A DNA stretch of 64,000 nt, taken from assembly GCA_947494335.1 (NCBI GenBank), contig CANLUT010000002.1:705904-769903 (forward strand), in the 5' to 3' direction. Source of the DNA: Oligoflexales bacterium. Lineage in GTDB: Bacteria > Bdellovibrionota_B > Oligoflexia > Oligoflexales > RGVZ01. Of this stretch, positions 1,626 to 16,148 are shown in pieces. The translations under genes and the position numbers were made by a program. The notes beneath the pieces are model-generated. The model searched no databases. It saw only the letters and a list, made by a program, of their open reading frames with translations, and was not told the origin of the DNA. The first letter of the stretch is position 1; every line of letters begins with the position of its first letter.

Positions 1626-2474
1626 TCAGATTTTATCAGCAAATAGAAATGCAGCGAGAGTGACGAAATCGTCAGGCGTCAATGTCTCAGCTCTTCGATT
1701 GAGATCAATCGGGCAGTCTTCGTCTGGACGACCTCGCATGAACGGCCGCACAGCATTCCTCAGCTTCTTTCTGCGCTGCGTGAAAGCGATGCGACAAATC
1801 GTCTCCGTATATTGTAGGAGTTTTCCTTGGCCTGGCTCATCCGAACGTGGACGAAGTGTGATCACGGCGCTGTCAACTTTTGGGACCGGAGTAAAACAGG
1901 TCTTCTCCACCCGAAAGTTGAAGTCACAGTGTGAGCGAAGCTGGCAGTAAACACTCAAGCTTCCGTAATCTTTATTATCTGGCGGCGCAACGACTCTTTG
2001 CGCAAACTCTAGTTGGACCATAAAGATGGCGCCGTTTAACGACTTGAGGTGAGGCAGAAGCCACATCAATATGGGGGTTGAAATATTGTAGGGAATGTTC
2101 CCAACCACCCCGACAGGTGTTTTCCCGCTGCTTGAAATCCAAGCTCCGAGATCGAATTGTAAAATATCTTCATTGATCACATCCGTATTTGGGAGACTGC
2201 CACTTCTAATTAAATCGTTGATACGTGCGGCAAAGCGATCGTCCTTTTCAATGGCGGTGACAGTGATCCCTGCTTTTGAAAGTGCAGTCGTCAAAATTCC
2301 ATTTCCCGGACCAATTTCCAGTACTTTCTTTATTCCTAGGTCTTGAGCCTGTTCAACGACTCGATTAACGGGCCAATCAGTGTTCAAAAACACTTGCCCA
2401 AGGCTCTTTTTTTGAAAGATTTTTTGCGAGGAGCTGTGGGCATCTTGACTTAAATCGCCATAACCACGACGCAT
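1626..2474 (-). CDS. rsmA: 16S rRNA dimethyladenosine transferase RsmA (KsgA)
   Basis: RsmA dimethylates two adjacent adenines near the 3' end of 16S rRNA, using S-adenosylmethionine, late in small-subunit assembly. The 282-residue protein has the family order: SLGQVFL at 24-30, SAM motif I EIGPGNG at 53-59, the acidic ribose-binding residue in AIEKD (about 76), and catalytic motif IV GNIPYN at 125-130. A C-terminal helical domain contains FTPVPKVDSAV and FTQRRKKLRN. Length is normal. The ATG is preceded by gaggagcaaact, and the start lies 10 bases after the tsaD stop, so the two are probably co-transcribed. Confidence 0.95.
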   Translation of the reverse strand: MRRGYGDLSQDAHSSSQKIFQKKSLGQVFLNTDWPVNRVVEQAQDLGIKKVLEIGPGNGILTTALSKAGITVTAIEKDDRFAARINDLIRSGSLPNTDVINEDILQFDLGAWISSSGKTPVGVVGNIPYNISTPILMWLLPHLKSLNGAIFMVQLEFAQRVVAPPDNKDYGSLSVYCQLRSHCDFNFRVEKTCFTPVPKVDSAVITLRPRSDEPGQGKLLQYTETICRIAFTQRRKKLRNAVRPFMRGRPDEDCPIDLNRRAETLTPDDFVTLAAFLFADKI

Positions 2475-10750: not shown

Positions 10751-11392
10751 TTGGCAAGTCATCTTTACACATGGATAAACCCAGTTCGCGAGTCTCATAT
10801 CGAGCAGATTTGCGCGGTACTCAGAGATGATGGAGTTGTAGCTCTTGGGCTTGACGTGGCGTGGGCGTTTGTGTGTGATGCTGCCAGCAGTAAGGCTTTG
10901 GACAGAATTCATCGGTTAAAGCCAGAGCATCCTAAAAGTCGTCCTTTTAGTTTAATTTGCAGCTCCATTTCCATGGCGTCGCGTGTCTGTGCGATTGATG
11001 ATAGTGCTTACCGTTGGCTGAAGAAATCGCTTCCGGGACCATACACCGTGATTCTTGACCGTCACGCAAGTCTGCCTCGGCAAATCCATGACAAGCGACG
11101 CGAGGTGGGACTTAGAATCCCAGATGATCCCCTGGTGTGGGCTATCGTTGAGAGGCTGGGTCACCCATTAGCCGCCTCAACCATCCCGGTGGCACAGGGT
11201 GAATTCGGAAATGGTCATCCCGGGTTTGGGACCGAGGTTATGGACTCATGGGGGCATGCCATCGATTTGGTGGTCGATCTCGGGGATGAAAGTCCTAGGC
11301 AAGAGACTACAATCATTGACTTAAAAGGTGGTGTTCCGGAGCTCGTTCGTCTTGGTGCCGGAGACCCTAGTTCATTTGGGATTTCTTCTTAG
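10751..11392 (+). CDS. YciO-like protein of the Sua5/YciO/YrdC family
   Basis: The 213-residue protein matches YciO more than Sua5/TsaC: it has the KxR-type nucleotide region SRPFSLICSSIS, the LPGPYTVILDRH segment, EVGLRIPDDP, and the ending TTIIDLKGGVPELVRLGAGD. TsaC/Sua5 make threonylcarbamoyl-AMP for tRNA t6A; the physiological role of YciO is not settled. Start: TTG at 10751 with ggaga at 10741-10745. An ATG 20 bases downstream is out of frame. The gene opens a rightward operon that continues with the RuBisCO-like protein. Confidence 0.85.
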   Translation: MASHLYTWINPVRESHIEQICAVLRDDGVVALGLDVAWAFVCDAASSKALDRIHRLKPEHPKSRPFSLICSSISMASRVCAIDDSAYRWLKKSLPGPYTVILDRHASLPRQIHDKRREVGLRIPDDPLVWAIVERLGHPLAASTIPVAQGEFGNGHPGFGTEVMDSWGHAIDLVVDLGDESPRQETTIIDLKGGVPELVRLGAGDPSSFGISS

Positions 11393-11462
11393 GTCAGCTC
11401 AGGGGTTGACCTTCCCCAAGTCTCGTCATATCAGAGGGTTTCATTGCATTGAGGGACTCCTG

Positions 11463-12617
11463 ATGGTCGACAGTATTCTATTTCCAGCAAAGAACGAGCT
11501 CGAACCGCTCAGTCATCGCGTCGGCGGTTTGGTTAAGGCTTGTTACTCATTCCCGGCTGAGGATGAGGCCGCTGCACGCAAGATGTCCATTCAAATAGCC
11601 ACCGGTCAAACAATCGGCTTTTTGCCAGATGACTTGCCGATATATGAGCTTCACGTTGGCCGGGTTGTAAACATTGAAATGTTGGGTGATCGTGGTCGTG
11701 CGACTATCGTGTTTCCAGCGCAGCTATTTGGAAACGATATTTCCGGAATGCTGACCGTATTATTTGGCAAAATCTCTTTTGCTCCTGGTCTTAGATTAGA
11801 ATCAGTGGAGGCTGACAGCAACTTCTTGAGGTTACTCAAGGGCCCGAGGCACGGGCTGTCTGGTATTCGCACCATCGTTGGGAAACAGCATTCAAAAAAG
11901 CCACTCTTAATGGCCATCTTAAAACCTGGTCTGGGTCCATCTGACGACAAGATTGCTGAGCAGTTCGGGAAATTGGTTCAAGCAGGCACAGACTTGGTCA
12001 AAGACGATGAAACTCGCATCGATCTGACGTTGGATCAAGCCTTGGTGCGACTCGAAAAAGTACTATCTTCCGGCAAGGGCAAAGGTATCTACGTCACCCA
12101 CTTGTCCGGTCCTGCCTTTGAATTGAAGCAGCGCGCTCTTAAGCTACAGTCAGCTGGTGCACAGGCTTTTTTATTTTGCCCGTACACCTATGGATTATCG
12201 ATACTGCAGGCATTGTGCTCGGATCCGGAAATTAAGGTGCCGTTATTTGCCCATCCAGCTTTTACTGGCATCATGAGTCATGGGTCTAGTGCAGTTAGCC
12301 CGTCGGTTTTGCTCGGAACATTGATGCGTTGGAGTGGTTGTGACGCTGTCTTGTTTCCAAGTCCTTATGGTTCAATTTCTCTACCCAAATCTGAAGCTAT
12401 TCAGGTCCATGAGAGTCTCGTTCGTCCCGAGGGCCAATTGAAAGTCGTTGCATCGGTACCGTCGGCTGGCATTATGCCTGAATTCGTTTCGCGTATTCGC
12501 GAGGATTTTGGCGGCGATGTTGTTGTGAATGCGGGAACTGGGATGGCGCGCACAGGTTCTGGTGTTGAGGAGGGCGCACAAGCCTTCCAACGCGAAATAG
12601 ATATTCATTTCTCTTAG
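11463..12617 (+). CDS. RuBisCO-like protein (form IV, MtnW/enolase-type)
   Basis: A 384-residue protein of the RuBisCO large-subunit superfamily. Seen: the active-site Lys in AILKPGLGPS (Lys154), the carbamylated-Lys/metal motif KDDE at 180-183, HPAF at 264-267 replacing the HRA of true RuBisCO, a loop-6 region (VPSAGIMPE) without the catalytic Lys, and a phosphate-binding NAGTG at 356-360. Form IV proteins do not fix CO2; known ones act as 2,3-diketo-5-methylthiopentyl-1-phosphate enolase, as a methylthioribulose-1-phosphate isomerase, or on phosphorylated branched acid sugars. An MtnB-like aldolase 11 bases downstream favours methionine salvage. ATG at 11463 has gaggga upstream; earlier in-frame codons overlap yciO. 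Confidence 0.9.
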   Translation: MVDSILFPAKNELEPLSHRVGGLVKACYSFPAEDEAAARKMSIQIATGQTIGFLPDDLPIYELHVGRVVNIEMLGDRGRATIVFPAQLFGNDISGMLTVLFGKISFAPGLRLESVEADSNFLRLLKGPRHGLSGIRTIVGKQHSKKPLLMAILKPGLGPSDDKIAEQFGKLVQAGTDLVKDDETRIDLTLDQALVRLEKVLSSGKGKGIYVTHLSGPAFELKQRALKLQSAGAQAFLFCPYTYGLSILQALCSDPEIKVPLFAHPAFTGIMSHGSSAVSPSVLLGTLMRWSGCDAVLFPSPYGSISLPKSEAIQVHESLVRPEGQLKVVASVPSAGIMPEFVSRIREDFGGDVVVNAGTGMARTGSGVEEGAQAFQREIDIHFS

Positions 12618-12628
12618 GAATTTAAAAG

Positions 12629-13252
12629 ATGTCAGCTGGCGTTAATCCATTTCCTGTCCCGTCACCACTTGAAAAGGTCCTGCTGAAGGAGTTGGTCAGT
12701 GTTGCTGCGCGCTGCTATGAGCGTGGATGGTCCTGGGGTACAGCTGGTAACTTCAGCATTCGCGGTAAAGGCTCACTTATCTGGCAAAGCGCAACTGGTC
12801 TGTGCAAGGGAGAGCTGAATCCTGATTTGTTTATAGCTGTGGACTTGGCGGTAGAAAAAGCTGTTGAACCATGGACTCAGAAACCATCAGCTGAGATGCC
12901 GGTTCACGCAGGGATATACAAGTCTGTTCCAGAAGCGCGCTGTGTGGTGCACACTCACCCTCCGCAGGCCGTTAGAGCCAGTCGAGGTAAGCAGTCATTG
13001 ATCTTTAAAGATGAGGAGATGGCGAAAGCCCTTGGTCTTCGCAGTCACACAGATACGCTATCCATCCCAATTCTTCCAAACGGCACTCCAGAGCAGATGC
13101 TGAATTATTCCGCAAAAGTTAAGGATGGTCTTGGCGCAGTTGCTAAGGTTCTTATTTTGGAGGGTCACGGTGTTTGGGCTTGGGGGAAAACACCCTTGGA
13201 AGCTCTCGCTTATTTGGAGGCTCTTGAGTTCCTATGCACTCCGAAACCGTAA
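12629..13252 (+). CDS. mtnB: Class II aldolase, probable methylthioribulose-1-phosphate dehydratase (MtnB-like)
   Basis: A 207-residue zinc enzyme of the class II aldolase/adducin family. Zinc ligands are visible as HTH in CVVHTHPP (about residues 109-111) and the later His in LEGHGVWAWGKTPLEAL. The acid catalyst region KPSAEMPVHAGIYK, SWGTAGNFSIR near the start and SATGLCKGEL all follow MtnB rather than fuculose aldolase. MtnB dehydrates methylthioribulose-1-phosphate to the diketo compound that MtnW enolises, so the two adjacent genes fit consecutive steps. Other class II aldolase substrates remain possible. The last 19 bases overlap lipB. Confidence 0.87.
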   Translation: MSAGVNPFPVPSPLEKVLLKELVSVAARCYERGWSWGTAGNFSIRGKGSLIWQSATGLCKGELNPDLFIAVDLAVEKAVEPWTQKPSAEMPVHAGIYKSVPEARCVVHTHPPQAVRASRGKQSLIFKDEEMAKALGLRSHTDTLSIPILPNGTPEQMLNYSAKVKDGLGAVAKVLILEGHGVWAWGKTPLEALAYLEALEFLCTPKP

Positions 13253-13926
13253 ATCCGATAATGAACGCGTTTAACGTGGTTGACCTTGGGGTCATGCGTT
13301 ACGGCGATGCGCTTATTCATCAGGAGCGAGCTCATGCAGATGTGATGAGTCAGCCGTCTCGTCATGTCATCTTTTGCGTCGAGCATGAGCCCGTTTTAAC
13401 AATGGGAAAAAACTCTGACGCCTCAAATCTGCTGTTTCCTCGTGATTTTTATATCCGACAAGGTGTCGAAATTTTCGATACAGAACGTGGCGGACAGGTT
13501 ACAGCGCATATGCCGGGACAGATGGTGATCTATCCAATATTAAATATGGCTGAGCTTAAGCTTTCGATTCGAGACTATGTCAATATTTTAGAGGAGTCGG
13601 TCATCCAAACTCTGGCGCATTTTGGGCTCCGCGCTCATCGTGATCAAGAGCATCCCGGCGTGTGGATTGAACACGAAAAAATATGTGCCCTTGGCGTTCG
13701 AGTGCGGTCTCGTGTGTCGATGCACGGTCTGGCTTTGAATGTTAGTAATGATCTTTCTCTCTTTGGTAAGATTATACCCTGCGGCATCAAATTCCGTGGT
13801 GTTACCAGTATCGAGAGACAACTTGGATCCAAAGTGGATATGTCAGTGGTTAAAGGCCAATTAATTGACCACATCACATCGCGCCTAGTCCGCGCCGATA
13901 TCTCCACTGTCCGTCGATTTAATTAA
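13234..13926 (+). CDS. lipB: Octanoyltransferase LipB
   Basis: LipB moves octanoyl groups from acyl carrier protein to lipoyl domains, the first step of protein lipoylation. The 230-residue protein carries HEPVLTMGK, RGGQVTAHMPGQ (RGGQ at 85-88), the catalytic Lys149 in EHEKICALGVR, and catalytic Cys183 in IIPCGI, plus MHGLALNV. All are intact. Start at 13234 has ggagg about 12 bases upstream inside mtnB; an ATG at 13261 is an alternative. The 3' end overlaps the convergent response-regulator gene by 42 bases. No lipA is seen in the window. Confidence 0.95.
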   Translation: MHSETVNPIMNAFNVVDLGVMRYGDALIHQERAHADVMSQPSRHVIFCVEHEPVLTMGKNSDASNLLFPRDFYIRQGVEIFDTERGGQVTAHMPGQMVIYPILNMAELKLSIRDYVNILEESVIQTLAHFGLRAHRDQEHPGVWIEHEKICALGVRVRSRVSMHGLALNVSNDLSLFGKIIPCGIKFRGVTSIERQLGSKVDMSVVKGQLIDHITSRLVRADISTVRRFN

Positions 13927-15342
13927 TAGGTGAAGCTCTTTACGAGAGATAAGATTCAGATTTACAATTTGTTCAATCTTTGACGCCATCGTGGACTTCG
14001 GAATTCCTGCGGCTTTGGCTACAGCCCGCATCGACATGGTGCCGTTTTTTTGAAATTCAGCGCGTATGATTTCAATAAGAAGGCGCGCAGAGAGCGCGTC
14101 AAAGCTTGGTCGCTGCTCTTCGCTCCACCTGACTGTGATAGTTTGGTTGTCAGCAGGCTTGTCGTCAGTTGGCTTGCATCTGTCTGACATTCGTTGCCAA
14201 ATGTTTGAAGGTATGGAGCTTGGGGTCAAGATCCCGTCAGACGAGTGTTCAGTCATCGCTCTTAAACAATTTCTTAGCTCGCGAACATTGCCGTTCACCC
14301 AATCATAGGACTTTAAGGCTTCCAGAACGAGTGGCGCGAGAGAATACGGCCCACCTCTCATACTACCGCAAAAAAATTGTACCAACTCGGTAATTTCTTC
14401 TTTACGGGCGCGCAGCGGCGGCAATTGGATCTGCGTTTCACAAAGTCTCTGCCAAAGGTCTTTCCGAAATTTTCCCTTCTCAACAAGAATGCTGAGTGCC
14501 TCATTTGTAGCTGAAATAACTCTAAACGACAGTTTCAGTTCTTGATTCGCTCCGACTCTTCTAATCGTCTGATTTTCAATGGCACGCAGAAGTCCCGCCT
14601 GTGCTTCGAGCGTCAGCGTCGCGACCTCATCGAGGAAAATCCAACCACCATTGGCAGATTCGAGGAGTCCTTTTTTGTCTGAATTGGCCCCGGTAAAGGC
14701 GCCCTTGGTATGACCAAAAAGTTCACTTTGAATCAATGTGGGCGGAATGGTCGCACAGTTGACTTTTATAAAGGGAGTGTCTTTTGGGCTGTGAAATTGA
14801 AATAATTCAACGACGACCTCTTTGCCTGTGCCGCTTTCTCCCTCGATGTAGATGCAGTTGATCGCCGACTGAATTAGCTGCGGTATACGTTTTTCGATGG
14901 ATTTCATGGTGGATCCAGCGATATCTCCGCTTATTTTTGACTTCGTTAACTTTATTTTCCGTAGATTTATGGCGAACTCAATACGCCTTAACGTACTGGC
15001 GCTGTCCCAATCTTTGGTAATAAAGTCGTCGGCGCCAGAGGCAAGACTCTCTCTTACAAAATTCAAATTTTTCGAAGCCGAACACATGAGTATCGCTGAC
15101 TCCGGACAGAGATTGCGACAGATTTTCGCGATCTCGATACCGTTTTTGTCGCCTTCTGACAAGCTCACATCAAGTACAAAAACATCGATATTATTATCAT
15201 TCTTCAGCTTGGCAAACATGGACTCAGAGTTTTGAAATTGAATCAAATGAATGTCCAACGTCGAATTTTCTTTTGAGAGGATCTTGGAAAATCGCTCAAG
15301 CGTCAGGAGGTCGTCATCTAAATGCACGATATTAATTCTCAT
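13885..15342 (-). CDS. NtrC-family sigma-54-dependent response regulator
   Basis: The protein has a receiver domain (acidic DDD at 9-11, phosphoacceptor Asp58 in VLDVS, Lys110), then a sigma-54 AAA+ domain: Walker A GESGTGKE at 168-175, the sigma-54-contacting GAFTGA at 214-219, and Walker B GGWIFLDE. Near 440-465 is a C-terminal helix-turn-helix (MRAVAKAAGIPKSTMASKIE). At 485 residues it is full length and looks active, so it should turn on sigma-54 promoters after phosphorylation. It starts with ATGA overlapping the stop of the 96-residue H-box protein upstream. The HTH resembles the Fis-type only loosely. No sigma-54 target promoter is recognised nearby. Confidence 0.93.
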   Translation of the reverse strand: MRINIVHLDDDLLTLERFSKILSKENSTLDIHLIQFQNSESMFAKLKNDNNIDVFVLDVSLSEGDKNGIEIAKICRNLCPESAILMCSASKNLNFVRESLASGADDFITKDWDSASTLRRIEFAINLRKIKLTKSKISGDIAGSTMKSIEKRIPQLIQSAINCIYIEGESGTGKEVVVELFQFHSPKDTPFIKVNCATIPPTLIQSELFGHTKGAFTGANSDKKGLLESANGGWIFLDEVATLTLEAQAGLLRAIENQTIRRVGANQELKLSFRVISATNEALSILVEKGKFRKDLWQRLCETQIQLPPLRARKEEITELVQFFCGSMRGGPYSLAPLVLEALKSYDWVNGNVRELRNCLRAMTEHSSDGILTPSSIPSNIWQRMSDRCKPTDDKPADNQTITVRWSEEQRPSFDALSARLLIEIIRAEFQKNGTMSMRAVAKAAGIPKSTMASKIEQIVNLNLISRKELHLLIKSTDSGDIGAD

Positions 15343-15629
15343 GACGATTCTCGCTGGTTGTGATGTTGCATGAGAGCTTCTATGAACTTTTCTGCAATTA
15401 GTTTGAGAGTCAACTCGTGCTTTTGCAGTTGAGCAATTTTTCTAGTCGTATCTTGGCTTTTAGGACCGGTGTTTTCCTCGGATAAGGATTCAATCATCAT
15501 GGCGTAAGAGAGAAGCGCAGCCTTAATGTCATGTGTCACTTGCGATTTTAGATCCTCGTTAATGGAGCGTGAAATTTTAATTCTAAGTTCAATCGACTCC
15601 AGTGTGATCAGTGTGCTTACTTTTGACAT
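15339..15629 (-). CDS. Stand-alone histidine-kinase-type H-box helical protein, no ATPase domain
   Basis: A 96-residue all-helical protein. Helix 1 carries SQVTHDIKAALLSYAMM, which resembles the H-box of HisKA domains (candidate phospho-His33; the usual Pro after HDIK is Ala). A second helix, KIAQLQKHELTLKLIAEKFI, matches the second helix of a DHp hairpin. There is no N, G1 or G2 box, so it cannot bind ATP by itself. The gene overlaps the NtrC-type regulator by four bases, so translation is coupled. Inference: phosphotransfer intermediate, phosphatase partner or adaptor for that regulator. It may instead be a fortuitous helical match. Confidence 0.6.
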   Translation of the reverse strand: MSKVSTLITLESIELRIKISRSINEDLKSQVTHDIKAALLSYAMMIESLSEENTGPKSQDTTRKIAQLQKHELTLKLIAEKFIEALMQHHNQRESS

Positions 15630-15824
15630 AGTTCTCGTAGTCCTAATTTATCTGCGCTGTGGAACCTTATCGGCGCAAGGCCCCTGAACTTGAGGGGAGT
15701 TAATGTCCTGTAATGGCCTGTAATTAATGCGAATAGCGATAAAACGTTGTTTTTAAGTTGAGCAGTGGTTAGTATCCAGCGGCCACCGCAAGATCGGAAT
15801 TTTCGTTGTCTTTTGAGGCTTAGG

Positions 15825-16148
15825 ATGTCCCAGTCAAACTCCACAAATCAGACCCCTGCTGCAGCGGCCTCACCTCAGCCAGAGTTCGAAGTTCTGATGG
15901 TTCCCTCAGCTTTGCAGGGGCTTCGACCGTGCTGTCGCGATACCGTTCGCAGCCACGTCACTCATAATCCGATGATGGTTTGTCCAGATTGCAAGATCAT
16001 GATCAAGTGTTTTTCGGACGAGAAATCCTTCAATAATTATCTGACTTTTTGTAGAACCAGAGGGCGCCGCGTGAAAACGGTCGTTGAATCTGGCTTTTTT
16101 TTCGCAATGTATAACACGTACCCTATGTCGATTGGGTCCGGCGGCTAA
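15825..16148 (+). CDS. Small cysteine-rich protein, probable zinc binding
   Basis: The ATG at 15825 has tgagg 9-10 bases upstream and gives 107 residues. The first 20 residues are Ser/Thr/Ala/Pro-rich. Then come CC (36-37), CPDC (53-56), Cys62 and Cys76, a spacing that suggests a zinc ribbon. His44 and His47 add possible ligands. No signal peptide, so likely cytoplasmic. The C-terminus is Gly-rich. Family not recognised. It ends 10 bases before the convergent ctpA gene. Confidence 0.6.
   Translation: MSQSNSTNQTPAAAASPQPEFEVLMVPSALQGLRPCCRDTVRSHVTHNPMMVCPDCKIMIKCFSDEKSFNNYLTFCRTRGRRVKTVVESGFFFAMYNTYPMSIGSGG

Follow-up and report, generated by a model that had tools for sequence, protein, structure and literature searches.

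A free-standing histidine-hairpin protein, probably a phosphotransferase, beside an NtrC-type regulator in Oligoflexales

Introduction

Histidine phosphotransferases of the DHp type are already known from Spo0B and ChpT, both of which carry a kinase-like second domain. In the sporulation relay of Bacillus subtilis, Spo0B serves as the H2 and forms a four-helix bundle from two helical hairpins, with the kinase-like domain at its C-terminus. ChpT, from the CckA-ChpT-CtrA pathway of Caulobacter, is a dimeric histidine phosphotransferase that connects a hybrid kinase to a DNA-binding regulator and does not autophosphorylate (PMC3433190; PMC9981736); its disordered N-terminus precedes a DHp hairpin (residues 20-83, turn at 51-58) that bears the acceptor His33 (PMC3433190). 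A phosphotransferase made of the DHp hairpin only was described nowhere in the literature that we searched, which does not prove that none has been reported. Here we analyze a locus in an Oligoflexales genome, within a stretch of 64,000 nucleotides (hereafter, the window), that encodes a 96-residue protein (the 96-mer) next to an NtrC-type regulator, and we compare it with these systems.

Results

The 96-mer is encoded on the minus strand (15629..15339), begins with ATG, and contains QVTHDIKAALLSY, in which His33 (codon at 15531..15533, minus strand, as computed from the ORF) is the predicted phospho-acceptor. The first-pass annotation, which gave no strand, had seen VTHDIKAALL here and had remarked on the missing N/G box, and both observations hold: N/G box and ATP lid are absent, and neither Pfam nor NCBIfam assigns the protein to a family. 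Pfam finds no HATPase_c domain, as in a histidine kinase, in this ORF or in the next gene. The ORF is not a chance one, because a single relative is kept as a gene in each of 24 genomes. Its stop codon overlaps the start of the regulator gene by 4 nt (ATGA, 15339..15342, minus strand), which had been taken as translational coupling; the overlap is present and recurs in one relative (G002), the coupling is a reading of the overlap only, and in other relatives the two genes are 1-20 nt apart.

The overlapping gene (13885..15342, minus strand) encodes a response regulator of 485 residues with Pfam matches to Response_reg (1e-12), Sigma54_activat (2e-54) and AAA_lid_14. Its receiver pocket is intact (Asp9/10/11, Asp58, Ser88, Lys110), with Asp58 as the predicted phospho-acceptor (D2), and a GAFTGA loop is present. 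The C-terminal HTH (MSMRAVAKAAGIPKSTMASKI) was read by eye, its sole Pfam support being a sub-threshold match to HTH_24. The regulator is thus of the NtrC type, by the acidic pocket and Asp58 of its receiver, the GAFTGA-bearing AAA+ domain, and the HTH read by eye, and the complete receiver-AAA+-HTH architecture claimed for it earlier stands on the same terms. A sigma-54 promoter pattern matched five times over the window (2.65 expected), none of these matches lying at the operon, and scans for sigma-70 promoters and terminators stayed at chance level.

Beyond the small gene lies a 127-aa ORF (15765-16148, plus strand) with paired cysteines (RPCCRDTV...MVCPDCKIMIKCF) and no Pfam match; in G004 (L006) a homologue stands at the corresponding position next to the small gene, making it a conserved neighbor. 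On the other side (11328-13252, plus strand), a RuBisCO-like protein, whose best NCBIfam match, below cut-off, is to the MtnW-type 2,3-diketo-5-methylthiopentyl-1-phosphate enolase, is followed by a class II aldolase-family protein that is probably MtnB, the two genes forming a pair for methionine salvage. The relocated regulator of G004 adjoins an IF-2B-family gene resembling mtnA.

Used alone as a query, the 96-mer gave weak matches that, in other members of the genus, lie immediately upstream of the regulator's ortholog; at the loci of more distant relatives, a small gene was seen on one side of the regulator or the other. By profile search, 24 of the 58 genomes of the phylum that we searched carry the gene, each in exactly one copy, as do two further named MAGs (those of L099 and L100). 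Proteobacteria, Bdellovibrionaceae and Deltaproteobacteria are the labels of the MAGs that contain relatives. Family members measure about 75-145 aa, end after helix 2, and always lack a kinase domain, including a C-terminal kinase-like one of the Spo0B/ChpT type. The 21 aligned members are very diverse (10-28% identity to the 96-mer, mean column identity 27%), and His33 is nevertheless kept in all 21 and Asp34 in 20, the exception being the G053 relative with HQ for HD, whereas the next best columns reach 76%. Conservation of His33 was a test by which the earlier proposal of a DHp-type module could have failed, and the residue came through it unaltered. Pfam and NCBIfam scans of the 21 members gave scattered chance matches and no family (among them one weak match of a single member to a histidine kinase model, E 0.0099), HisKA (PF00512) matched none of them even at E<=1, and the plasmid collection held no match. 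A profile search of PDB sequences also returned chance matches and was set aside. The 96-mer belongs to a previously undescribed family of proteins.

AlphaFold predicted helices with low confidence from the single sequence (pLDDT 68) and, when given the 21 relatives, two helices at residues 25-52 and 59-95 (mean pLDDT 85.9, about 97 around His33, pTM 0.71), which places His33 and Asp34 on helix 1, where an H-box belongs. The protein had been called all-helical; the helical hairpin bears this out in part, with the first 24 residues non-helical in the better model. The prediction covered the monomer only, which is the expected hairpin, and a dimer of the 96-mer should form a four-helix bundle. 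A Foldseek comparison of the hairpin with the PDB returned generic helical hairpins only (E>0.7), the method being unable to distinguish between such hairpins. Aligned profile to profile with HisKA H-boxes, the family gave P=4e-4 over 51 columns with His on His, and the score of 22.3 was reached in none of 400 column shuffles (best 17.7); masking the His-Asp columns reduced the match to P=0.06, so the signal leans on that pair.

The first-pass annotation had suggested looking for the pair in related genomes, where it is indeed kept, in several gene orders and with the same regulator subfamily. The small gene occurs beside this regulator in at least four different arrangements: upstream in the window's genome (G000) and in G001, G002, G003 and G005, downstream in G014, G017, G025, G030 and L099, convergent in L100, and divergent in G053. 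It is present and unlinked to the regulator in G004, genus g2 and family f8, and in the latter two it has fixed neighbors: at L061-L072 it is transcribed divergently from a subtilase-like gene and comes shortly before gmk and a gene resembling spoT/relA. At L099, from a Bdellovibrionaceae MAG, a stand-alone receiver-like ORF of 109 aa (1967-2296, plus strand; no Pfam match) overlaps the end of the small His-Asp gene. Across 38 genomes, 20 have both genes, 15 have neither, two have the regulator only, and one has the small protein only (Fisher p=1.3e-7, uncorrected for shared descent). The two regulator-only genomes (G012 and G020) belong to a single family, f4: the G012 receiver is degenerate, with TKT for DDD and Arg for Lys110, and the G020 regulator, by inspection, lacks the DD motif at its N-terminus. 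Judged from sequence, such degeneration would be expected after a phosphate donor had been lost.

In two relatives (G001 and G003), the operon runs from small protein to regulator to a hybrid histidine kinase with a 7TM region (817 and 820 aa), in which Pfam detects HATPase_c and Response_reg and a second, C-terminal receiver is visible by eye. The order in G014 and G025 is regulator, small protein, hybrid kinase, and in G053 a similar hybrid kinase lies nearby, downstream; Pfam places an SBP_bac_5 domain at the N-terminus of the kinase in G025 and G053. The scans showed an Hpt domain in none of these kinases; they therefore need a separate H2, and the obvious candidate for it is the small protein. 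However, G010, a genome without the small protein, also has related double-receiver hybrid kinases, so this kinase type is not tied to it.

The best match to the relatives' kinases in the window's own genome is an orphan HisKA-HATPase-REC protein of 530 aa (about G000:C2:504230-505822), which matches their cores at E 2e-22 to 5e-38 and whose terminal receiver resembles that of the G001 kinase (34%, E 1.7e-8). On these similarities, it is the best candidate for the kinase in this genome, where a search for an SBP_bac_5-type kinase sensor found none. The 7TM homologues of the same genome were rejected as the kinase: their matches are confined to the 7TM region, and the single one that was scanned proved to be a SpoIIE phosphatase.

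L126 (1457-3637, plus strand) encodes a 7TM protein with a SpoIIE phosphatase domain, and its membrane domain is common to the relay-linked kinases of G001 and G003 and to a cut-off 7TM ORF of G004; the same sensor appears to serve two different outputs. L130, L131 and L128 encode hybrid kinases 929-1097 aa in length. Two of these start with a peptide-binding SBP_bac_5 domain and apparently lack a signal peptide, which is unusual for a sensor. The small protein of G054 is encoded behind genes that resemble peptide ABC permeases.

Discussion

We consider it likely that the 96-mer is a free-standing DHp-type histidine phosphotransferase, taking phosphate from a hybrid kinase encoded elsewhere in the genome and passing it through His33 to Asp58 of the adjacent regulator. 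This was among the options raised by the first-pass annotation, and it is favored by the invariance of His33, the conserved pairing with the regulator, and the hybrid kinases in the relatives' operons; for the family as a whole, passage of phosphate from a distant sensor kinase to the regulator via a bare histidine hairpin is the most likely function. In the relay that we infer, two 96-mers would assemble into a four-helix bundle that exposes His33 on helix 1, and a hybrid kinase encoded elsewhere (the orphan 530-aa protein being the best candidate) would autophosphorylate and shift the phosphate to its own C-terminal receiver. His33 would take the phosphate from that receiver and hand it to Asp58, and the phosphorylated regulator would activate sigma-54 promoters. 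The dimer, the phosphorylation of His33, the direction of transfer, the identity of the kinase in this genome, and the target promoters are all parts of this proposal. Several findings speak against it: Foldseek recovers generic hairpins only, the HisKA match fades when the His-Asp columns are masked, G010 has the kinase type without the small protein, the gene is separated from the regulator in family f8 and genus g2, and the G053 relative carries HQ.

A protein of this kind could also act in reverse, as a dedicated phosphatase or phosphate sink that drains Asp58 via His33 or close to it, with direct phosphorylation of the regulator left to an orthodox kinase. Bifunctional kinases do use their DHp hairpins to dephosphorylate their regulators, draining by back-transfer via an H2 protein to a receiver is known, and at one Desulfobacterales locus (L101) a homologous regulator stands, without the small protein, beside a kinase-like 7TM protein with the H-box THDIKKPF. 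However, HisKA-type phosphatase motifs have T or N at H+4, whereas 18 of the 21 relatives have A or G, which weakens the phosphatase module that had been suggested earlier; strict conservation of the histidine itself suits phosphotransfer better, and the operons carry hybrid kinases that need an H2. We therefore regard a draining role as unlikely.

It is less probable still that the 96-mer is a non-catalytic adaptor or dimerization partner of the receiver in which His and Asp are kept for structure or binding: such a role would suit a small protein that lacks an enzyme domain and is tightly linked to the regulator, and it is largely the His-Asp pair that makes the family profile resemble those of kinases, but these two residues are kept where little else is, and where the regulator occurs without the small protein, its receiver pocket has decayed. 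That the 96-mer is a canonical monomeric Hpt domain diverged beyond recognition seems very improbable, although it would do the same job in a hybrid-kinase relay, Hpt motifs also read H-x-[LI]-K-G, and hhalign to Hpt puts His on His (P=0.05). This alignment does not rise above shuffles (6 of 200 block shuffles were as good), two helices are predicted where an Hpt needs four or more, and none of the 21 members has a Pfam match to Hpt (PF01627).

The window's genome does contain a free canonical Hpt of 120 aa (L147; G000:C1:401337-401570, minus strand), directly downstream of another receiver-sigma-54 regulator. Its presence counts against the 96-mer as phosphotransferase, yet it also provides a parallel relay layout: in both cases, a sigma-54 receiver regulator is accompanied by a small free protein with the same predicted job, and the two proteins differ in fold and motif. 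With HisKA, the 96-mer shares the HD[ILV][RK] H-box followed by a helical hairpin and the weak in-register profile match; it differs in having no catalytic ATP-binding domain, no Pfam match, and Ala or Ser for the Pro of the H-box. The 96-mer also resembles ChpT, in which the hairpin has nearly the same limits as those predicted for the 96-mer and His33 likewise lies on helix 1. In contrast to ChpT, which has Pro38 at H+5, all 21 family members have Ala or Ser at this position; the output regulator of the 96-mer is of the NtrC type (sigma-54); and where ChpT has a C-terminal degenerate ATPase domain, the 96-mer has no second domain. The 96-mer would work like ChpT, yet without its second domain, and it likewise differs from Spo0B, with its kinase-like C-terminal domain, in ending with the hairpin.

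On balance, we lean towards seeing here a new family of free DHp hairpins that arose from a kinase when its entire catalytic domain was lost and that serve as the dedicated H2 of a relay from hybrid kinase to NtrC-type regulator, which would make them the smallest natural DHp phosphotransferases yet recognized. The dead kinase domain retained by the known DHp-type phosphotransferases has no fully settled role, in part because it may help to recognize the partner receiver. A natural family without this domain would, if confirmed, mean that a hairpin by itself is enough to serve two receiver partners in succession, and it would offer a 96-residue system for direct tests of specificity. It would also show that short H-box ORFs without a kinase domain can be genuine components of relays, overlooked by current family libraries.
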